A DNA stretch of 64,000 nucleotides from Desulfobacterium sp. Its GTDB lineage: Bacteria > Desulfobacterota > Desulfobacteria > Desulfobacterales > Desulfobacteraceae. Positions 14,295 to 26,563 of this stretch are shown here, piece after piece. Both the position numbers and the translations under genes were made by a program. Location: positions 1-64,000 of the forward strand of contig JAQYWC010000005.1 of assembly GCA_030145245.1 (NCBI GenBank). The letters run 5' to 3'. A model generated the notes under the pieces. That model did not search any database. It had not been told where the DNA came from and was given only the letters and a program-made list of their open reading frames with translations. How positions within the stretch are numbered: position 1 is the first letter of the stretch; each line of letters starts with the position of its first letter.

Positions 14295-16448
14295 TTATTT
14301 CTCCGTCAGGATGAGCAGATACTGGGCCATGAGGAGGGTTCGCTGCACCAGGCTCATGCGGGATACCGCCTCCCGGGCCGTGTAAAGGTCCCTGGCCACG
14401 GGACCCAGGCCGCAAAGTACCGGAACCGGAGGCGTAACCAGGCCCGCCGAAGAGGGCCAGAGGGAGGTTTCCGTGGAAAGGGGAATGTCCCATTCAGCAG
14501 CCAGGGCCATGAGTTCATCGATCATATGTCCGTTGCCCCTTTGCTCCACCATGGGGGGGCGGTCCGACACCAGGGCCAGGTCCCAGCGGAGTCCCTCCCC
14601 TTTTAGAATCTGTTTCATGGCCCGCTCCAGCTCCCTCATTTTTTCCTGGGTGGGATAGGAGACCTGGAGGGTGACCCGTGCCCGGTGGGGAATTCTCTGG
14701 GGAAAGGCCTCGGTCCGGATATCCACGGCTGCCACCCCCAGCCGGTGTTTACGGTTACTCAGTTCGCTGACCTGGTCCAGCTTTTTGTAAAGCACCCGCA
14801 TCACCTCCCGCACCCGGCCGCCCTGTCCCAGCTTCAAGGATTTGCCCTCCACGGTAAGTCGGTAGTTTCGCTGGCCCCGGCGGGAAATGACGATCCGGTC
14901 TCCCAGGTTGCCGGAGTTGAGCACCATCACCCGGTCTACCTTTTCAGCAGCCCGGGTGATGATCTCAGCAGATTCCTCGCAGTCCCGTCCCTCGTCGGCA
15001 TAACAAACGACCCCCAGCCGGGAACTCTTGAATTTCCGAACATGCTTGAGTGCCCGGAGAACGTACTCCAGCTGCACCAGGGGGGCCCGGGATGAACCGA
15101 CCCCCTCCCCGAACAGCCACTCCGGGTCGCACCGGAATTGCTCGAGCCCCAGGTACGGGCTCACCGGTACATCCATATGGGAGATGAGCAAAGTGCCCCG
15201 GCTCATGCCCAGGGGGCTTTCCCAGGTCCATACGTCCCGGTGGTCGGTGAGCCCCTTAACCTGTTTCATGCCGATCTCACCCATGATTTTGTCCAGCTTG
15301 TTCGCGGCCATGCGCAGCCCCACGGGATCGTCCGACCGGGAGCTGATGTTGCTCCAGTCCTCCACCCTTTTTTCAAGCTGGTCCCGCCTTTCCGTGAGAA
15401 AGGCAAACACCCCCTGGCGGGGATCCCTGATCTTTTTGGAAATCTCGGGGGGATTGGGGGTTCCGAAATAGCGGGCTGAGGCCACCTCCACCATGCGGTT
15501 GGCAAGGGCGGTGAAATCCATGCCCATGGCCCCTGCGGCAGCCACATAGGAGCCGTGCTCGCCCAGGCTCGGCAAAGAATTGATCTCCAGCACAAAAAGG
15601 TTGCCCCCGGCATCCATCCGCATGTCCACACGGGCACAGTCATAGCAACCCAGGGCCTCAAAGGCCTTCCGGGCGATCTTCTGGGCTTTTTCAAACACGG
15701 CCTTGTCAATCCCGGCCGGGCAGACGATCCCGATATCCCGGCCGGACTGGTGCTTTTTGTCCTCCAAGGTGTAGACCTTCGGACCCGTATCCCCGAAAAT
15801 CAGTTCCGCCGGCAGAAAGGTTTCCAGGTTGCTCCCATTGCCCAGGAGCCCCACGTTGATCTCCCGCCCCTCAATATACCGTTCCACCAGCACGGCCTGG
15901 TCAAACTCCTTAAAAATGGTGGCTGCGGCCTCCTTGAGCTCTTCCGGGTTATTGACCACCTTAATGCCGAATGAGACCGCTTCGTTCTTGGGCTTCACAA
16001 TGAGGGGATAGTCCATCTCCGGCATCTGGGAATCCGGGTTGTTCAGTACCGCAAACTCCGGGGTGGGAATGCCGTTCTGCACAAACAACATCTTGGCCAC
16101 CACCTTGTCCAGGGCCAGGGAATGGGCCAGGGGACCGGAGCCCACATAGGGCACCCCCACCATCTCCAGAATGCTGGGAACATGGGTGTACCTGGCCTGC
16201 CCCTGGATCCCGTAGGAGAGGTTAAAGGCCATGCCAGGCCGTTCCCCCTTCAGGGCCCGGGGCATAAACTCCTCCAGCTTATCGATGAGGTCCTTGTCAC
16301 CCTCCATGGCCGTGGCATGGTGGCCCCCCTTTTTCAGTGCCGTAACAATACGCTTGATGGCTGCAAGGCCGTATTTTTCACGGTTGGGCAATCCGAACAG
16401 GTTGATCACTTTCTTTGATTCGCGGTTATAGATCACTGCTATTTTCAT
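14295..16448 (-). CDS. Fusion protein: D-Ala-D-Ala-ligase-like ATP-grasp domain plus M20-type peptidase-like domain
   Basis: MKIAVIYNRES...YPLIVKPKNEAVSFGIKVV...ALGCYDCARVDMRMDAGGNLFVLEINSLPSLGEHGSY (ATP-grasp), then RGTLLISHMDVPVSPYLG...GEGVGSSRAPLVQLEYVLRALK...DEGRDCEESAE (M20-like). Confidence 0.82.
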   Translation of the reverse strand: MKIAVIYNRESKKVINLFGLPNREKYGLAAIKRIVTALKKGGHHATAMEGDKDLIDKLEEFMPRALKGERPGMAFNLSYGIQGQARYTHVPSILEMVGVPYVGSGPLAHSLALDKVVAKMLFVQNGIPTPEFAVLNNPDSQMPEMDYPLIVKPKNEAVSFGIKVVNNPEELKEAAATIFKEFDQAVLVERYIEGREINVGLLGNGSNLETFLPAELIFGDTGPKVYTLEDKKHQSGRDIGIVCPAGIDKAVFEKAQKIARKAFEALGCYDCARVDMRMDAGGNLFVLEINSLPSLGEHGSYVAAAGAMGMDFTALANRMVEVASARYFGTPNPPEISKKIRDPRQGVFAFLTERRDQLEKRVEDWSNISSRSDDPVGLRMAANKLDKIMGEIGMKQVKGLTDHRDVWTWESPLGMSRGTLLISHMDVPVSPYLGLEQFRCDPEWLFGEGVGSSRAPLVQLEYVLRALKHVRKFKSSRLGVVCYADEGRDCEESAEIITRAAEKVDRVMVLNSGNLGDRIVISRRGQRNYRLTVEGKSLKLGQGGRVREVMRVLYKKLDQVSELSNRKHRLGVAAVDIRTEAFPQRIPHRARVTLQVSYPTQEKMRELERAMKQILKGEGLRWDLALVSDRPPMVEQRGNGHMIDELMALAAEWDIPLSTETSLWPSSAGLVTPPVPVLCGLGPVARDLYTAREAVSRMSLVQRTLLMAQYLLILTEK

Positions 16449-16588
16449 CTGTAAAGTCCTTGTATTGAACATTGGAATAAAAATAACCCGTGAAACCCGG
16501 GGTAAGATATCTGGCATCAGGATGTTGCGAAAAAACATTATACCACAGGGGACAGCCCTTTCAAGCTATTACAGCAATCTCTAGCTCT

Positions 16589-17401: not shown

Positions 17402-17413
17402 ATTGTCGACAAT
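17402..17413. promoter_or_regulatory. Candidate operator for the adjacent FadR/FCD-type GntR regulator
   Basis: Perfect palindrome ATTGTCGACAAT 66 nt before the regulator start; TTGT-N-ACAA layout; a TTGACA -35-like hexamer at 17361. Confidence 0.5.
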
Positions 17414-17479
17414 CGGCTGACGAAACGATCGTTCAGCGAACAAAACCGGCCATAAACGAACCATTCAAGCAAGATAGCA

Positions 17480-18154
17480 ATGGACGTGACCATGACTCAA
17501 ATCAAAAGTCATAATCTCAGTGAACAGATTGCTCAACATATTGGCGAAAAGATTATTCAACTTGAGATCAGGCCCGGCGAAAGAATCCTTGAGGCAAAAA
17601 TAGCCGAAGAGCTGGGGGTCAGCAGGAGCCCTGTGCGGGAAGCATTTCGGATATTGGAACGCTACCGGCTGGTGGAACTCACGCCCAGGAAAGGGGTTAA
17701 GGCCACTGAAATTACGGAAGATTATATTGAGTGCCTCTACGACATTTTAAAAGTCAATTTTGGGTTGATGGCAAGCCTGGCAGTAAAAAGAGCCGGAGAT
17801 GACCAGCGAAAAAGGGTGAAAGAGGTGCTGCAGCAGATCGAAGCCCAGGCCCGAAAAGGAAATGTCCGGAAATATTACAGCGGCATATTTGAGTTCGCAG
17901 CCATTGGAATGGCAGCATCCCAAAACCCTCTCCTGGAAAAGATGCTGCTCGATTTGTGGCCGAGCATCAGACGGATACAATTTGCTTCCCTCAGCATCAG
18001 GGCAGAGAAATTAAAGGAAAACGGTGCCTATTTCAAAAAAATGATCCTCTACCTGGAGCAGGACAATCCGGGCATGACAGAGAAAACCGTAAGGGAATAT
18101 GCTGAAAACGAAAAACAATTCGCCATTAACATCATCAAACAAGGACTCATATGA
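17480..18154 (+). CDS. GntR-family transcriptional regulator (FCD/FadR type)
   Basis: LSEQIAQHIGEKIIQLEIRPGERILEAKIAEELGVSRSPVREAFRILERYRLVELTPRKGVKA wHTH. Confidence 0.9.
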   Translation: MDVTMTQIKSHNLSEQIAQHIGEKIIQLEIRPGERILEAKIAEELGVSRSPVREAFRILERYRLVELTPRKGVKATEITEDYIECLYDILKVNFGLMASLAVKRAGDDQRKRVKEVLQQIEAQARKGNVRKYYSGIFEFAAIGMAASQNPLLEKMLLDLWPSIRRIQFASLSIRAEKLKENGAYFKKMILYLEQDNPGMTEKTVREYAENEKQFAINIIKQGLI

Positions 18155-19446
18155 AGGCATTAAAAGATCAGGAATATGATGCAATCGTTGTGGGGACAGG
18201 TCCTGGTGGGGCCACAGTTGCCAAGGAGCTTGCCCAGGGGAACCGATCCGTTTTAATGCTCGAATGGGGCAATAATGAACCGGTCAATGGCACAAAGGCC
18301 CAGACCTTACGCAATTTCGGGACACCCGGTAAAAGCGTTCTTTTCACCAATGAGATGCTGACAATGGTTCGGGGGATCACAACCGGGGGAAGCTCTGTTT
18401 ACTACTATGGTACGGTCTTTTATCCACCGGTTGAGATGCTGAAAAGATATAATATCCGGATTGAGGATGAGATTGAAGAAGTAAACAATGAATTACCCAT
18501 AGCCCCCCTGTCCGACAGAATAATGGGGCCCATGGCGAAACGGATCATGAACAGTGCCCGGGAACTTGGGTATGATTGGCAACGAGCACCCAAGTTTATG
18601 TACCAGGACAACTGCCGGCCGGAATGCGAAAAATGCGGTTATGGTTGCCCCCATGGCGCAAAATGGACCGCCAGGCATTTTGTTGAACAGGCCCGGAAGA
18701 ATGGTGCCCGCCTGATCAATGGCGCAAAAGTGACAACGGTTTTAACTGAAAACGGGAAAGCACAGGGTGTTATGTTCAGGCAGGGTCACGCCACCCATCG
18801 GGCGTTTGCCAAACAGGTGGTTTTAGCGGCCGGTGGGATTGGTTCTCCGCTCATTTTAAGGGCATCGGGTTACCCCACTGCCGGACGGGATCTCTTTTAT
18901 GATCCGTTGATCGCAGTCATGGGCACGGTATCAGATATTAAAGGAGGCAGGGAGATCCCAATGGCGTCCTGTGTCCACATGGAAGATGAGGGGTATGTCA
19001 TGTCAGATATGACACTCCCCCCAACCGTATATGGGGTTCTGACCGCCCAGGCGGGCCGGATCAATCAATTACTCAACCATCCCAAAACGTTAACCATCAT
19101 GGTAAAAGCAAAAGACAGTTTAGGCGGGCATTTGTCCAAATCAGGCGGGGTGCGCAAGCTTCTCTCCGATTCGGACAAGCAGAAGCTGACAAGGGGATAT
19201 AAAAGAGCCAGGCAGATTCTCAGAAATGCCGGGGCCGGGAATATCTTTAGAAGCCATTTCCTGGCTGCCCATCCGGGGGGTACTGTGAAAATCAACGAGC
19301 TGGTCAATTCAAATCTTGAAACAGAGATTGAAAATCTTTTTGTGTGCGATTGCTCCGTTATTCCCGAAGCCTGGGGCTTGCCGCCGACATTTACCCTTTT
19401 GTGCCTGGGCAAGCGGCTTGCAAAACATATGAACAAATCATCTTAA
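18151..19446 (+). CDS. GMC-type FAD-dependent oxidoreductase with Cys-rich motif
   Basis: DAIVVGTGPGGATVAKELA Rossmann motif; CRPECEKCGYGCPHGAKWTA; C-terminal HPGGTVKINELVNSNLETEIENLFVCDCSVIPEAWGLPPTFTLLCLGKRLA. Confidence 0.85.
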   Translation: MKALKDQEYDAIVVGTGPGGATVAKELAQGNRSVLMLEWGNNEPVNGTKAQTLRNFGTPGKSVLFTNEMLTMVRGITTGGSSVYYYGTVFYPPVEMLKRYNIRIEDEIEEVNNELPIAPLSDRIMGPMAKRIMNSARELGYDWQRAPKFMYQDNCRPECEKCGYGCPHGAKWTARHFVEQARKNGARLINGAKVTTVLTENGKAQGVMFRQGHATHRAFAKQVVLAAGGIGSPLILRASGYPTAGRDLFYDPLIAVMGTVSDIKGGREIPMASCVHMEDEGYVMSDMTLPPTVYGVLTAQAGRINQLLNHPKTLTIMVKAKDSLGGHLSKSGGVRKLLSDSDKQKLTRGYKRARQILRNAGAGNIFRSHFLAAHPGGTVKINELVNSNLETEIENLFVCDCSVIPEAWGLPPTFTLLCLGKRLAKHMNKSS

Positions 19447-19470
19447 AAATTAATACAGGAGATTTTTCCA

Positions 19471-20913
19471 ATGTCTGGCCTGCAATTTAAAAATGCGTCT
19501 TTTGCTGTTTTTGCCGCCGAAATCATGAAAACACGGGAAGCCAGAACCATTCTGGATTCCACGGTTTCAGATTTTTTTGGCAAATGGGATGGAAACGGTG
19601 ACCTCAAATCCCAATTTGCAAAGCATGCAAAACGGATCATTCAAAGACGGCTGACCCAATCGGAGGACAGACATAATAACCAGGAACTGATGGATCTTTT
19701 ACAACATCCTGAGGTAATGGAATACATAGGGAAAAAGCTGCCGGTATCAATGAACAGCCTGGTGGAAATTGTCCACCTGATGGCTGTTTCACTTGAGAAC
19801 TATCCTGAAGAGAAACAGCAGGAGTTTTTAAATGAAATATTTGCTTCAATCAATGCGGATAAGATCGCCGGAATACTGACCTCCCTGGCAGGAACAATTG
19901 ACACGATTCATAAGAACAATCCAACGATTATCGCAGATAACCTGGTTTCTATCCTGAGACAATTTTTAGAAAATATTGATCTGGGAGAGATAAAAAATCT
20001 GTCTGAGAATTCCAAAACCGATCTGAGAGCCCTTATTACCAGGGTCAACGATCTTTTATTCGAGTTTCCGGCAAAGCTGATCCTGATTCTCTCTTTTATT
20101 CCCGGAATATCAAATACCCTGCTGTTTTTTCTTGAGGATCTGGTCAAAAGATTCAACGCCCTGCCCGCGGATATCTTAACAGATTTGCTGATTTCTTTTT
20201 TTAAAGAGGTGGATGAAAAAACGGTGGGCAGGCTTTTAAACAACCTGGCCGAGTTGATACGGCAGGTTCATACCGGAAGCGCTTTGATCGGTGATCCGGG
20301 GTCTCCCAGGTTCTCAACCGAGTTTGCCCGTAAAACCGGGACGATCTTAAAAGAGATGGACCCTGAACTGCTTTTCAAAGCCGGCAATGCCCTGATTGAT
20401 GGGAAAGAGGCGTTGTTGAAATCACTGTATGATGCGGCCTGGGAAGATCCTGATTTTCCGGAACTTGCACTTAAACAGATGATGGCCACCAAAAACTCAA
20501 AAATCCGGGTGATACAGCAGAAAATTGAGCTGTTGGACGAACTCGGTGAAGAAAAGGCCGGTGCGGCAATCGCAGCCGCCGCTTCAGAATGGAATGCCGA
20601 CGGGTTTGCCGAATTAATTAATTCAGCCTGCAGCATGGCCAACCGGCTCCATCAATCTTCTCCGGATCTTTTAAATGGCTTTGTTACTGAATTTGTAGAT
20701 GCACTTGACCTGTATGAAATTGAGGAAAGCGTGACCTGGATCTCCCGTGATCTCACCGGGACGTTTAAACCGGTAATACAAACCGTGTTGCCCATTGTAG
20801 TCAAAGATCTGGTCGAATGCCTTGCATCGGGAAACAACGGCAATGAAGAACAGATCACCGCCATGCGGACAACCCTGCGCCGTTTTATAATGGATGAGGA
20901 AATTTACCCATGA
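19471..20913 (+). CDS. Hypothetical helical protein (480 aa), no family recognised
   Basis: Long ORF inside the operon, ATGA overlap with the next gene; all-helical appearance. Confidence 0.8.
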   Translation: MSGLQFKNASFAVFAAEIMKTREARTILDSTVSDFFGKWDGNGDLKSQFAKHAKRIIQRRLTQSEDRHNNQELMDLLQHPEVMEYIGKKLPVSMNSLVEIVHLMAVSLENYPEEKQQEFLNEIFASINADKIAGILTSLAGTIDTIHKNNPTIIADNLVSILRQFLENIDLGEIKNLSENSKTDLRALITRVNDLLFEFPAKLILILSFIPGISNTLLFFLEDLVKRFNALPADILTDLLISFFKEVDEKTVGRLLNNLAELIRQVHTGSALIGDPGSPRFSTEFARKTGTILKEMDPELLFKAGNALIDGKEALLKSLYDAAWEDPDFPELALKQMMATKNSKIRVIQQKIELLDELGEEKAGAAIAAAASEWNADGFAELINSACSMANRLHQSSPDLLNGFVTEFVDALDLYEIEESVTWISRDLTGTFKPVIQTVLPIVVKDLVECLASGNNGNEEQITAMRTTLRRFIMDEEIYP

Positions 20914-22064
20914 AAAATGTCTTTCAAGAGGCCGCCACCACCCTTGACATTCCCAGCGTTCAGGAATGGAAAAAAAAGGACAGGAAGGTTGTCGGATATA
21001 CCTGCTCATTCATGCCGGTTGAACCCTTTTACGCCGCAGGTATCCTTCCCCTGCGGCTCCGGGGGATAAATGCCACAAGCATGGAAATAGCAGATTCATA
21101 TTATGGCCCTTTTGTCTGCAGTTTTCCCAAAGCCCTGCTCCAGGTTGCCGGCACCGGGAAATATGGGTTCCTGGATGGAGTGGTCCTGTCAAACGGATGC
21201 GATACCCTGCGCAGGCTTGACGATTGCTGGCGGAAAATGGGCCAGGATATAAAAGGCTCTCTTCCCCCCTGGTTTCATTATCTTGATGTGCCCCATAAAC
21301 CCGACGGCCATGCCTTTGACTGGTATGTCAATCAGATCAAAAAAATGATGGCAGCCATTGAAAAACAGTTTGATGTAACCATTACCCAAGAGAAACTTTA
21401 CCACGCCATAAAGGAGCAGAACCGGGTACGCAGCCTGCTTTGGGAACTTGAGAAGCTGCGGCGAAAAGATGAGCTAAAAGTCACCGGATCGGAAGCCTAC
21501 ACCGCCATCATCGCCGGAACGGTCATGCCAAGGGATATTTATGCCGGCCACCTGTCTGATTTAATAGAAGATATTCAAAACAGAACGGTTGATGTTGCAG
21601 CCAACCGGAAAAGACTATTTCTGAGTGGCAGTGTGTGCGATGATTTTGATCTTATCCATCTGATAGAGCAATCAAATGCTATTGTTGCGGGCGAAAACCT
21701 CTGTTTCGGTGTCCGCAATGATGAAGACATTGTCAGTGAAACAGGAGACCCTGTTGCCGCCCTTGCAGCGAAGTATTTATCCGGTTCGGTCTGCCCCCGG
21801 ATGATGGGCTGGTACCAGGCAAGATCGGCCAGGCTCATGAACAGAATAAAAAATATCAATGTTGACGGCGTTATTTTGCAGAATATCCGGTTCTGCGATC
21901 TTCATGGTTCTGAAAACGGCCTTTTTGAACGTGATCTTGAGAAGAACAGGCTTCCGTCTTTACGAATCGAAAGGGAGTATGGTCCTTTGACTGAGAGCGG
22001 CAGACTGAGAATGAGGGTGGATGCCTTTATTGAACAGCTCTCATCAGGCAATCAAACAAGATAA
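20910..22064 (+). CDS. 2-hydroxyacyl-CoA dehydratase / benzoyl-CoA reductase (HgdB/BcrB) family subunit 1
   Basis: VVGYTCSFMPVEPFYAAGILPLRLRG...DGVVLSNGCDTLRRLDD; HgdB-like fold signature. Confidence 0.85.
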   Translation: MKNVFQEAATTLDIPSVQEWKKKDRKVVGYTCSFMPVEPFYAAGILPLRLRGINATSMEIADSYYGPFVCSFPKALLQVAGTGKYGFLDGVVLSNGCDTLRRLDDCWRKMGQDIKGSLPPWFHYLDVPHKPDGHAFDWYVNQIKKMMAAIEKQFDVTITQEKLYHAIKEQNRVRSLLWELEKLRRKDELKVTGSEAYTAIIAGTVMPRDIYAGHLSDLIEDIQNRTVDVAANRKRLFLSGSVCDDFDLIHLIEQSNAIVAGENLCFGVRNDEDIVSETGDPVAALAAKYLSGSVCPRMMGWYQARSARLMNRIKNINVDGVILQNIRFCDLHGSENGLFERDLEKNRLPSLRIEREYGPLTESGRLRMRVDAFIEQLSSGNQTR

Positions 22065-22073
22065 AGGTGGCCC

Positions 22074-23477
22074 ATGAGACCTGAACTGAAAGAGTACAAC
22101 CTGGACTGGCTTTTTGCTTCAACCTTTAATGTCTCAAAACATCTGTGCAACGCGACCCCCAAAGAGCTCAAATCCATGTTCAAGTATATACCCTACGTAA
22201 GAGGGCTGTTGGAGCCTTTACTCGCCACGGGTAAGCCTGCCATGACATTCCTTGATTTCTTTGGGGATTACTACACCGAAATCACCAATGCCAAGAAAAA
22301 TGGTAAAAAGGTGGTCATGACCACCTTCTGCTTTGATCCTTCCATTTTTTATGCCGTTGACAATGTGGTTCCCGTGACATTGGAGATCGGCACGGCCCTG
22401 ACATCCATGCTCTGGAAACGGGGATCAACCGATTTCATGGATTATTGCACTGAGATCGGGTTTTCGGAAACAGGGTGTTCCTCCCAAAGGGGGGCCATGG
22501 GCGCCTATCTTGCAGGCCTTGGTGCCGACATTGACCTGGTTGCCCTGAACATGGGCGGGGTGTGCGACACCAATTCCAACGCCTATGCTTTTGCGGCTCA
22601 ATATCTTAATGTTCCCTATTACGGGCTTGACTATCCTGCCAACCTCACGTCTGAAGATGTGCAGGAATACCATCATAAAGATTACAGGGCCCTGATCCGG
22701 TTTCTTGAAGAAAATACCGGGTGCAAGTTTGATATTGACCGGCTCAGGGAAGTTCTGGAGGAAAAGAGGAAACAGGATGATCTGATGAATGAGCTGGAGG
22801 AGATGCAGCGCCTTGTGCCCAACCCGGTTCCCGGGATTTATCATATCATGATCTACGCCGGCCGGTTCATCTTTTCCGGCAAAAAGAAATATACAAGGAT
22901 GCTGGGGGAGATGGTTGAGATTGTTCGCAAGAATGCTGAAGAGGGGCGTTCAGGACTGAAAAAAGGGATTGAGAAAAACAGAACCTTTCTTCTCTATATT
23001 GATAACTATGCCCTTGGCATATCAATGGTTGAGTGGTTTGAGAAAAAGGGGATATCCCATATGGGCAGTATTTTATCACGGACATTCACGGAGACCGCCC
23101 CCTATACCACAGGGATTCCCGGAACAACCTATCGCATCGATACCACCACCCTGGACACCATGATCGACACCATGGCGGATATCAATGCAAGAATGCCCAT
23201 GACCCGGACCATAAGAGGCCCCTACGATGCGCCGAACATGTGGCTGGAGGACAGCATCTCCCTTGCAAAAATATATAATGCGGACTGCTGTATTTACAAC
23301 GGGACTCCGGGGTGCAGGAACACATGGTCGAACATCAAACTGCTGACACGGGATCTTGAAGCCTTAGGGTTTCCCACCCATATTGCCTATGCAGACAGCT
23401 TTGACAGCCGGGTGGAGGCATGGGAAACAACTGAGACCCGGCTGGATGAATTTTATAAGATCAGGGGGTTGCTATGA
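22074..23477 (+). CDS. 2-hydroxyacyl-CoA dehydratase / benzoyl-CoA reductase (HgdB/BcrC) family subunit 2
   Basis: KKVVMTTFCFDPSIFYAVDNVVPVTLE...GFSETGCSSQRGAMGAYLAG...DADCCIYNGTPGCRNTWSNIKLLTRDLEALGFPT. Confidence 0.82.
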   Translation: MRPELKEYNLDWLFASTFNVSKHLCNATPKELKSMFKYIPYVRGLLEPLLATGKPAMTFLDFFGDYYTEITNAKKNGKKVVMTTFCFDPSIFYAVDNVVPVTLEIGTALTSMLWKRGSTDFMDYCTEIGFSETGCSSQRGAMGAYLAGLGADIDLVALNMGGVCDTNSNAYAFAAQYLNVPYYGLDYPANLTSEDVQEYHHKDYRALIRFLEENTGCKFDIDRLREVLEEKRKQDDLMNELEEMQRLVPNPVPGIYHIMIYAGRFIFSGKKKYTRMLGEMVEIVRKNAEEGRSGLKKGIEKNRTFLLYIDNYALGISMVEWFEKKGISHMGSILSRTFTETAPYTTGIPGTTYRIDTTTLDTMIDTMADINARMPMTRTIRGPYDAPNMWLEDSISLAKIYNADCCIYNGTPGCRNTWSNIKLLTRDLEALGFPTHIAYADSFDSRVEAWETTETRLDEFYKIRGLL

Positions 23478-24289
23478 GTATTGTTGCGGGATGCGATGTG
23501 GGGTCCCTCACCACCAAGGCCGTCATTATCAAAAACAAACGAGTCATGGATTCCGCGATTATCCGGTCCGGTCCGAAACCGGCGGAATCAGCTGCCAAAG
23601 TAATGGAAAAACTCTTTGATCAAACCGGAATATCCCAAAAGGAGATTGCCTGTTGCGTGGGCACCGGTTACGGCCGCGGGAAAATCCCGTTCATTGACCA
23701 TGCCGTCTCTGAGATCTCATGCCACGGCAAGGGGGCCCAATGGCTTGTTCCCACCGCCAGGACAATCATCGATATCGGGGGGCAGGATTGCAAGGTGATT
23801 AAACTTGATAAACAAGGCAACCTGTTAAAGTTTGTCACCAATGATAAATGTGCTTCCGGTACGGGCCGGTTTCTGGATGTCATGGCCAAGGTTATGAACA
23901 TGGAGGTTTCAGACCTCGGCAGATTATCGGCAAAATCAAGCGCCCCTGTCATCTTTGCCTCGGTCTGCACGGTCTGGGCCCAGGCCGACGTAATAAAGCA
24001 TATCAACTCCAGGCGTCCGGCGGAGGATATCTGTGCGGGCATCAATACCGCCATGGCCAACAGGGTTTCCATGCTGGCAAATACCTTAAAGATCGAAAAC
24101 GATCTCTGCATCACCGGTGGTGTGGCTAAAAATGACGGCGTGGTCAAGGCGTTGGCCAAAATTCTGGGCTGCAGAATTAAGCGCATCAAAAGAACAGATC
24201 CGCAACTGACCGGCGCTGTGGGCGCGGCCCTCTTTGCCCAGGAAAGGCAACAGGCTCTTTTTAATAATCCAAACCGGAGATACCTATGA
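23474..24289 (+). CDS. Acyl-CoA dehydratase activase (BadG/HgdC, ASKHA ATPase) 1
   Basis: GCDVGSLTTKAVII...GTGYGRGKIPF...DIGGQDCKVIKLD...FVTNDKCASGTGRFLDVMA...ITGGVAKNDGVV. Confidence 0.93.
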   Translation: MSIVAGCDVGSLTTKAVIIKNKRVMDSAIIRSGPKPAESAAKVMEKLFDQTGISQKEIACCVGTGYGRGKIPFIDHAVSEISCHGKGAQWLVPTARTIIDIGGQDCKVIKLDKQGNLLKFVTNDKCASGTGRFLDVMAKVMNMEVSDLGRLSAKSSAPVIFASVCTVWAQADVIKHINSRRPAEDICAGINTAMANRVSMLANTLKIENDLCITGGVAKNDGVVKALAKILGCRIKRIKRTDPQLTGAVGAALFAQERQQALFNNPNRRYL

Positions 24290-25062
24290 TAACAGCAGGC
24301 TGTGATGTGGGTTCCAGAACCGCAAAAGCTGTGATCCTTGAAAATAACAAAATACTGGCAAGTGCCGTGATCCCGGCAAAACTGGATCCCGTCCAATCCG
24401 CAGAAAGTGTGATCAAGATCGTACTTGAGCAGACGGATCTTTCCTTAAATAAGATAAAAAAAATAACAGGGACCGGATACGGCCAGCAGGAGATCCCCTT
24501 TGCCCACACGTGTGAATCCGAAATCGTCTGCCATGCCATGGGCGCATCCTGGAACATCCCCTCCGCCAGAATGATTGTCGATATCGGCGGCCAGGATTCA
24601 AAGGCAATCAAGATCGACAACACCGGCAGGGTCGTCCGCTATTCCTATAACGACAAGTGTGCCGCCGGCACAGGCCGGTTCCTTGAAATCATGGCAGATG
24701 CATTAAATGTTGAGCTGGATGAGATGGGCGAATGCGGCAAGTCCTACACAGAGGAGATCAGCATATCCAATCAGTGTGTGATCTTTGCTGAGACCGAAGT
24801 TGTTTCACTGATAAATGAGGGAAAGGAGGTGGCTGATATTTTAAATGCACTCCACTGCTCCTTAGGGAAACGGGTGGCCTCCCAGGCAAGAAGCCTGATC
24901 ATAGAAGAAGATGTGATCATGACAGGCGGTGTCGCCAAAAACATTGGTGTATTTGATGCCTTGTCCCAGGGACTGGGGGTCCAGGTAAAACCCCTTCAGG
25001 GCATTGACCCTCAAATTAACGGCGCCCTGGGTGCCGCGCTGATTGCGGCAAGTTCCCTATGA
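24286..25062 (+). CDS. Acyl-CoA dehydratase activase (BadG/HgdC, ASKHA ATPase) 2
   Basis: GCDVGSRTAKAVIL...GTGYGQQEIPF...DIGGQDSKAIKID...YSYNDKCAAGTGRFLEIMA...MTGGVAKNIGVF. Confidence 0.93.
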   Translation: MITAGCDVGSRTAKAVILENNKILASAVIPAKLDPVQSAESVIKIVLEQTDLSLNKIKKITGTGYGQQEIPFAHTCESEIVCHAMGASWNIPSARMIVDIGGQDSKAIKIDNTGRVVRYSYNDKCAAGTGRFLEIMADALNVELDEMGECGKSYTEEISISNQCVIFAETEVVSLINEGKEVADILNALHCSLGKRVASQARSLIIEEDVIMTGGVAKNIGVFDALSQGLGVQVKPLQGIDPQINGALGAALIAASSL

Positions 25063-25793
25063 AAATCTTCAATCAAATCATTGATGAGATAGCGACCTAT
25101 AAACACCATAAACAAAAGAGTACTTTATACCGGGAGTTTCAGGCAAACGCCGCCAGTACCTGGCCTGAAGCCGGGAAAAGAGATATCATCCTCATGCCTG
25201 ACCTTGCAGTGGAGTTAGGCAGCCCTGGAACCGCTTCCGTCTCATTTATGGTATGGACCGGGGATGGGACCCGCATCAATGATCAAAAGGTCACCCTCCT
25301 GGGACCGGACCTTACTGAAACGTCGGAAAAACAGATCCCTTTTGGCAAAATTGTCATGGCAGAAGTTGAAGGGTTTGATGAAAACAACGCTTTTGACCGG
25401 AACAGGGAGATATACCTGAAAAAATTTGACCTGTCTTTAAAAGGGTATATGCTGAGATCCGCGTCCCACTACATGGCGGAATGGAACCGGATCAGTAAAG
25501 CTGCGATCCAAAACGACTTTTCATTCAACCACCTGGGCAGCGCTCTGATCAGCGAGTACAAGAAAATCGATTATGTGAAATCGGTTGAGGTGATTTTTGT
25601 CACATCATCGGACGATGATGTAAACGAACTGTATAATATGGGAAAACGGTCCGCCCGCATGATCAGCGCCATGTCCAAAATGGTGAATGAGATGAGTTAT
25701 GACTGTTCAGCCTGTGATTATCAGGACCTGTGCCAGGAAGCCCTTGAACTACGCAAGTTAAGAACCCAATTGATGAAAAAGAACAGGAATTGA
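25059..25793 (+). CDS. CO dehydrogenase/acetyl-CoA synthase beta-subunit-related protein
   Basis: IILMPDLAVELGSPGTASVSFMVWTGDGTRINDQKVTLLGPDLTE...VEVIFVTSSDDDVNELYNMGKRSARMISAMSKMVNEMSYDCSACDYQDLCQEALELRKLR; stop/start overlap with both neighbours. Confidence 0.65.
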   Translation: MKIFNQIIDEIATYKHHKQKSTLYREFQANAASTWPEAGKRDIILMPDLAVELGSPGTASVSFMVWTGDGTRINDQKVTLLGPDLTETSEKQIPFGKIVMAEVEGFDENNAFDRNREIYLKKFDLSLKGYMLRSASHYMAEWNRISKAAIQNDFSFNHLGSALISEYKKIDYVKSVEVIFVTSSDDDVNELYNMGKRSARMISAMSKMVNEMSYDCSACDYQDLCQEALELRKLRTQLMKKNRN

Positions 25794-26563
25794 TCCATAT
25801 GCAGGAGAAACCGGTAATCATAGCGGTATGCGGCAAGGGAGGGGTCGGGAAAACCAGCATCAGCGCCCTTATGGTCAGGATGCTGTCCGAAGATCCTTCC
25901 AGAAAAATCCTGGCAATAGATGCTGATCCGGCAGTGGGGCTCTCCTTTCCCCTTGGCATTACGGTTAAAAAAACGGTTGATGATATCAGGAACGATCTAA
26001 TCAGGCGTCTTAAAAACGGTGAGGAATCAAACAAGGACGAGCTGATCAAATCCCTTGATTACGAGCTTTTCAGCGCCCTTGAAGAGAGGGAGAATCTCGC
26101 GTTCCTGGCCATCGGCAGACCCGAAGGCGATGGATGCTATTGCCAGGTCAACGCTCTTTTAAAGGATATCATCAGGGGGATTGCAGGCAATTTCGATTAT
26201 GTGATCATTGATGGGGAAGCAGGCGTTGAGCAGATCAGCCGGAGGGTCATGGAGATGGTGACCCATCTTCTGCTTGTCTCTGATGCCTCGTTAAAGGGGC
26301 GCACAATAGTTGAAACCATTAAACAGGTTGCCCGGGAAAAATGCGCCATCAATAGATCTGGCTTGATATTCAACAAAATGCGAAATCAGGAAGAGATTGA
26401 TGCGGTCCAAGCCAAAACCAAGCTTTTTACCTGTGGCGCAATCCTTGAGAATGATATGATCCGCAATTTCGATCGTGAAGGCCGAAGCTTTTTCGACCTT
26501 CACGACAACGACACCATCACCCAACTGAATACTGCAATAAAAACATTGCTTTCATCTGCTTAA
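25790..26563 (+). CDS. CooC/AcsF-type nickel-insertion (MinD-like) P-loop ATPase
   Basis: IIAVCGKGGVGKTSISALMVRML...ILAIDADPAVGLSFPLG...YVIIDGEAGVEQISRRVM. Confidence 0.85.
   Translation: MIHMQEKPVIIAVCGKGGVGKTSISALMVRMLSEDPSRKILAIDADPAVGLSFPLGITVKKTVDDIRNDLIRRLKNGEESNKDELIKSLDYELFSALEERENLAFLAIGRPEGDGCYCQVNALLKDIIRGIAGNFDYVIIDGEAGVEQISRRVMEMVTHLLLVSDASLKGRTIVETIKQVAREKCAINRSGLIFNKMRNQEEIDAVQAKTKLFTCGAILENDMIRNFDREGRSFFDLHDNDTITQLNTAIKTLLSSA

Follow-up and report, generated by a model that had tools for sequence, protein, structure and literature searches.

A nine-gene operon (g1 to g9) in a 64,000-nucleotide stretch of Desulfobacterium sp. DNA (contig JAQYWC010000005.1, positions 1 to 64,000; here called the window) rather likely encodes a self-contained, ATP-driven reductase that works at very low potential on a compound difficult to reduce and is laid out like class I benzoyl-CoA reductase (BCR). 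Many uncultured anaerobes share the operon as one conserved block, which apparently has never been described before. An earlier note on this DNA had proposed an undescribed, integrated HgdB/BCR-superfamily reductase driven by ATP and acting at low potential, and this part of its reading is supported by the separate clades of the two HgdB-like subunits and by the co-occurrence of the genes. No description of the operon system was found among open-access papers (subscription papers lay outside the search). The nine co-directional genes, all present as plus-strand open reading frames (ORFs), and the six 4-nt stop/start overlaps between them are exactly as first noted; g2 and g3 are separated by 24 nt, and g4 and g5 by 9 nt. 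The start proposed earlier, 17402, is the first base of a palindrome and not a gene start. The features of the operon are as follows.

Palindrome ATTGTCGACAAT, 17402..17413, no strand assigned: putative operator of the GntR/FCD regulator g1
g1, 17480..18154, plus strand: GntR-family regulator with an FCD domain (PF00392, 57.7 bits; PF07729, 45 bits)
g2, 18151..19446, plus strand: GMC-family FAD oxidoreductase (PF00732, 73 bits)
g3, 19471..20913, plus strand: all-helical protein of 480 aa, family unassigned (matches no Pfam or NCBIfam model)
g4, 20910..22064, plus strand: HgdB/BzdN-like, predicted [8Fe-9S] double-cubane subunit (PF06050, 272.7 bits)
g5, 22074..23477, plus strand: HgdB/BzdO-like active-site subunit, predicted [4Fe-4S] (PF06050, 160.5 bits)
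g6, 23474..24289, plus strand: ASKHA activase, BzdQ/HadI-like (TIGR00241, 245 bits)
g7, 24286..25062, plus strand: second ASKHA activase (TIGR00241, 226 bits)
g8, 25059..25793, plus strand: truncated ACS-beta (CdhC)-like protein of 244 aa (PF03598, 45 bits)
g9, 25790..26563, plus strand: CooC-type (CooC/MinD-type) P-loop ATPase (P-loop Lys, C116xC118)

Apart from the third gene, which matches none, the families named earlier (HgdB-like pair, two activases, GMC, ACS-beta-related protein, and CooC) are all recovered by Pfam and NCBIfam. The start codon of g9 is a TTG at 25790, and an alternative ATG lies 9 nt further downstream.

In the mechanism that we propose, g6 and g7 would dimerize as activase subunits bridged by a [4Fe-4S] cluster. 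ATP hydrolysis would push electrons one at a time into g4 at its [8Fe-9S] double cubane, and from there they would move to the active-site [4Fe-4S] cluster of g5; the substrate reduced there would most likely be an acyl-CoA or another acyl compound that is hydrophobic and possibly alicyclic. The flavoenzyme (GMC here, an acyl-CoA dehydrogenase [ACAD] pair in Smithella-like relatives) would take this same compound through a partner two-electron step, g8 and g9 would be a dedicated pair supplying or repairing a metal site, and g3 may be a helical subunit with a structural or substrate-binding role. The GntR/FCD regulator g1 would control the operon via ATTGTCGACAAT.

The reductase core of this mechanism is well supported by predicted cluster ligands and modeled folds. 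The double-cubane ligands of BzdN are C36, C73, C100, C263, C293, and C327, and the active-site cluster of BzdO is held by C95, C128, and C380 (PMC11971306). C32, C70, C97, C265, C295, and C329 of g4 align with the former, all six being cysteine, and they are kept in 40 of 41 g4-labelled relatives as well as in g4 of the window; two of these relatives lack C106, a seventh cysteine specific to the g4 clade, and may not be orthologues. HadC and MbdN lack some of the six. In a profile alignment, C135, C164, and C414 of g5 correspond to the three BzdO ligands, and all of 35 sequences share an additional cysteine, C86. When modeled with AF2 (pLDDT, 85; pTM, 0.89), g5 matches BzdO best in Foldseek, followed by HadB and DCCP; its best profile match is HadB. 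Both activases score above the TIGR00241 (CoA_E_activ) cut-off of 125.4 bits, and their cluster cysteines (C126 and C165 in g6, C125 and C164 in g7) are invariant in all aligned relatives. The note had suggested that each HgdB-like gene could have its own activase, which is not needed, because two activase subunits serve one catalytic heterodimer in the Bzd/Mbd layout (PDB 9gai; PMC11971306).

In phylogenetic trees, g4 and g5 form clades of their own (support 99 and 100, respectively), apart from DCCP, from the BCR and 2-hydroxyacyl-CoA dehydratase (HAD) rows, and from the HgdB pairs of a second module described below; long branches on several reference rows leave the deeper tree order unsure. 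A pair nested in a clade of known substrate, or CooC and ACS-beta-related partners routinely found apart from it, would have spoken against a new system according to the note; instead, the pair stands in its own clade and the partners co-occur with it. Scores against the curated BCR models are below the cut-offs (127.7 bits versus 421 for g4, 28.4 versus 486 for g5), as are those against the HadB and HadC models (128.9 and 54.1 bits versus 700 and 750). On the features compared, the operon falls outside BCR, HAD, DCCP, PlsA/Ger, and acetyl-CoA synthase (ACS) alike and would work most like BCR. It resembles BzdNOPQ and MbdNOPQ in having two HgdB-fold subunits and two activases, with the BzdN-type ligands in g4 and the BzdO-type [4Fe-4S] ligands in g5. 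It differs from them in its separate clades, its scores far under the BCR cut-offs, and the residues discussed below, and it additionally has g3, g8, g9, and a flavoenzyme; no aromatic-degradation genes were seen.

The arrangement is widely shared. One scan of genome contigs found g5 relatives of 48 to 81% identity in 14 loci from metagenome-assembled genomes (MAGs) labelled Desulfobacterales, Deltaproteobacteria, Smithella, Syntrophaceae, Spirochaetes, and Bacillota. Together with the loci from whole-genome searches, these display a recurring order of GntR or TetR regulator, flavoenzyme, and g3 to g9, in which the unit g3-g4-g5-g6-g7-g8-g9 is near-invariant across Desulfobacterota, Smithella-like, Spirochaetes, and Bacillota MAGs. 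The operon gene order is found again in about 50 other loci, indicating that the nine-gene arrangement is not due to chance; the conserved-neighborhood analysis suggested earlier gave a recurrent core unit, with g8-g9 co-occurring with g5. At testable loci of the first two of three locus sets, g3 is present in 37 of 37, g4 in 39 of 40, g6 in 38 of 39, g7 in 31 of 35, g8 in 27 of 35, and g9 in 28 of 32; the flavoenzyme is a GMC protein in 21 of 31 and an ACAD pair in 4 of 31. Among 243 genomes of the taxonomic order, 39 carry g5, and a close g5 relative was not found in any other tested member of the window organism's own family. Horizontal transfer of the operon is likely in view of this patchy distribution. 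Five loci (L095, L114, L142, L143, and L147) have g5 tandemly duplicated within one operon. Apparent gene fusions at L150 (ORFs of 829 and 546 aa) were rejected as frame-extension artefacts of high-GC DNA.

g3 is the exclusive partner of g4/g5: it occurs in 37 of the 243 genomes, every one among the 39 with g5, and lies near g4/g5 in all 37 testable loci. Its AF2 model (pLDDT, 81.6) is all helical; no PDB fold match was found, nor any known relative by sequence or fold. The flavoenzyme slot is exchangeable. The GMC protein g2, whose putative alcohol oxidation is a proposal of the note, scores under every NCBIfam cut-off and carries a motif, C155-x3-C-x2-C-x3-C166, whose cysteines are present in 25 of 29 GMC proteins examined. 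In Smithella-like loci, a conserved ACAD pair replaces GMC in its slot, and the third locus set contributes mostly this type of operon (TetR, ACADa, ACADb, fam1, g3 to g9, flavodoxin/Fer4, second HgdB pair, and activase). The best match of ACADb is cyclohexane-1-carbonyl-CoA dehydrogenase, with 98 bits, far below the cut-off. This exchange suggests a partner two-electron step; as a guess, the acyl compound concerned may be alicyclic or bulky. The absence of a nearby acyl-CoA dehydrogenase, on which the note had relied in part, holds among the window genes checked but not in the Smithella-like relatives; since these carry the ACAD pair where GMC stands here, acyl-CoA chemistry stays in consideration. 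The link between GMC and HgdB recurs in a different cluster, HgdB-GMC-HgdB-activase-activase (L057:6949-12580).

The second HgdB module, Hgd1b-Hgd2b followed by one activase (actb), stands after CooC in 12 of 28 testable loci (the pair and actb follow g8-g9 in L046, L047, L049, L051, L096 to L099, L102, L104, L110, and others). In L122, L123, L131, and L133, the second HgdB pair and g8-g9 stand together, at a distance from g4-g5.

g8 aligns with the middle region of ACS, and its C216, C219, and C225, corresponding to ACS C514, C517, and C526, are the same in every one of the 41 aligned rows; the fourth A-cluster cysteine and the later nickel-binding (Ni_d) cysteines are lacking, and hence the ACS A-cluster is incomplete. 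g9 has both sequence features of CooC, the P-loop signature Lys and C116xC118, in 41 of 41 aligned rows. The genome's CODH/ACS operon, with its own ACS and CooC, lies on another contig (C26), and g9 is 37 to 38% identical to that CooC. The reduced ACS site, the kept CooC motifs, and the separate CODH/ACS operon identify g8-g9 as a specialized paralogous set tied to HgdB-type systems; we infer that the pair matures a metal site. By counts read from genome lists and therefore approximate, standalone g8 occurs in about 41 of the 243 genomes and together with g5 in about 36 (Fisher P of about 5e-34), which agrees with the earlier view that the CooC and ACS-beta-related genes are true members. The pair also adjoins other HgdB pairs (L116, L117, L122, L123, L131, and L133). 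Beside g8 relatives, L119:296-2522 has two carotenoid-biosynthesis (PF04240) genes and a TetR gene next to g6 and g7 relatives as well, and L117:6145-7992 a linalool dehydratase/isomerase-domain gene next to an HgdB pair and a g9 relative.

The strongest evidence tying g1, g2, and g8-g9 to the core is the recurrence of ATTGTCGACAAT. The palindrome begins 78 nt upstream of the g1 ATG. The 6.4-Mb genome contains it at this one place (17402-17413) and the reversed control pattern nowhere; its sequence agrees with the operators known for GntR regulators of the FadR subfamily. In 12 further non-duplicate loci (L041, L042, L043, L055, L096, L097, L098, L099, L102, L107, L113, and L129), the 12-mer precedes the first gene of the operon. 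In L113, it is additionally found 127 nt ahead of a detached g8-g9 pair, and in genome G047, where GMC and GntR lie on a separate contig (L172), it precedes the GMC gene. The remaining sites in relatives are mostly inside or close to unrelated genes, and g1 relatives sit at many operon ends. Scans for sigma-70-type promoters and terminators did no better than on shuffled sequence.

Several observations weigh against a BCR-like reductase with the partners proposed here. The position of BzdO His131, a catalytic residue of class I BCR, is Asn167 in g5, and C86 appears at the place of BzdO Trp46, in a stretch where the alignment is uncertain; owing to these two differences, the chemistry of g5 is probably unlike that of BCR. 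Smithella-like loci have no GMC, and in f67 genomes g8-g9 adjoin a different HgdB pair at a separate locus, so that neither g2 nor an adjacent g8-g9 is strictly obligatory. A survey of genes flanking the loci yielded no consistent neighbors that would name a pathway; three loci had aldehyde ferredoxin oxidoreductase (AOR) with thioesterase, and the other neighbors included enoyl-CoA hydratase, PglZ, and histidine kinase, among others.

A dehydratase, in which g4-g5 would act like 2-hydroxyacyl-CoA dehydratase with the injected electron being catalytic and water eliminated, and in which the flavoenzyme would make or use a 2-hydroxyacyl-type substrate, is an unlikely alternative. HadB ranks near the top of the structural matches to g5 and first in the profile comparison, g6 is closest in the PDB to the HAD activator 4eht, and the Smithella-like loci have acyl-CoA dehydrogenases. 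However, HadC of (R)-2-hydroxyisocaproyl-CoA dehydratase (HadBC/HadI) lacks two of the six double-cubane cysteines, all of which g4 has like BzdN and DCCP; HadBC has one activator, whereas two activases per HgdB pair is the BCR layout, and every HAD model is far under its cut-off.

We give little credence to a nickel or other heterometal enzyme, that is, a novel class of ATP-driven reductase whose g5 would hold, beside its [4Fe-4S] cluster, a second metal (e.g., nickel) at C86, loaded by the CooC-like ATPase and the miniature ACS-like scaffold, or in which g8 itself would be catalytic. The CooC CxC in all g9 rows, the three A-cluster cysteines of g8, the invariant C86, and the tight co-occurrence of g8 and g5 are consistent with it. 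There is also a precedent in the operon of the isoprene reductase IsrA, which contains nickel chaperones (PMC10134865); this isr operon of Acetobacterium wieringae likewise combines a candidate low-potential reductase (a putative isoprene reductase) with such chaperones, but the enzyme family (FAD oxidoreductase) and the chaperones (HypA/HypB) are different. Compared with ACS beta/CdhC, g8 keeps the middle region and three cysteines in 244 aa but neither the fourth cysteine nor the Ni_d part, and an Fe-S-only role of g8-g9 fits equally. For the Ni- or double-cubane-containing enzyme suggested earlier, the six cysteines of g4 predict a double cubane; a nickel enzyme would be hypothetical, given what g8 lacks.

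It is quite improbable that the operon is a split-gene counterpart of the lipid-ester reductase PlsA/Ger, which unites two activase domains, DUF2229, and HGD-D in one chain where this operon has separate genes. The numbers of activase and HgdB-type parts are equal, Ger/PlsA is known in anaerobes including Desulfatibacillum (PMC13274423), and carotenoid- and linalool-type genes occur in two g8-containing loci; however, no lipid gene is linked consistently, and the genome already carries four PlsA/Ger-like DUF2229 proteins of about 1,400 aa each (contigs C42, C68, C18, and C13; L058 to L061). A system reducing small molecules like DCCP/DCCP-R, in a protective or other role, is very improbable: g4 shares the six cysteines, and its best NCBIfam match is double_cubane (DCCP equivalog NF040772), but at 179.5 bits versus a cut-off of 350, while the genome has two true DCCPs above it (497 and 438 bits; contigs C37 and C50, L001 and L002), the DCCP clade is separate with support 99, and the heterodimeric g4-g5 with extra subunits is unlike the homodimeric DCCP with its one reductase.

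Among the window genes checked, those flanking the operon are unrelated to it: TamB, Omp85, gamma-glutamyltranspeptidase, ATP-grasp/M20, pRiA4 ORF3, GH3, and a PEP-utilising enzyme. The ATP-grasp/M20 gene (14298-16538, minus strand) encodes one fused protein with an ATP-grasp D-Ala ligase-like domain and an M20-type peptidase dimerization domain. Elsewhere, AOR and thioesterase genes lie downstream of the operon in L101, L110, and L126, and L150:15652-18732, downstream of an operon copy, encodes a glycyl radical enzyme that is much extended at its N terminus.

Birch-type reductions demand potentials so low that very few enzymes are known to attain them. A heterometal-site reductase, if true, would unite BCR-type and ACS-type metal chemistry within one enzyme. 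As a BCR-like reductase, the reading that we prefer, a separate and widely shared family with a metal-handling pair, the exclusive g3, and an exchangeable flavoenzyme would extend Birch-type chemistry past aryl-CoA, and the operon would offer a concrete gene set for asking if double-cubane or active-site clusters depend on maturation factors of their own.

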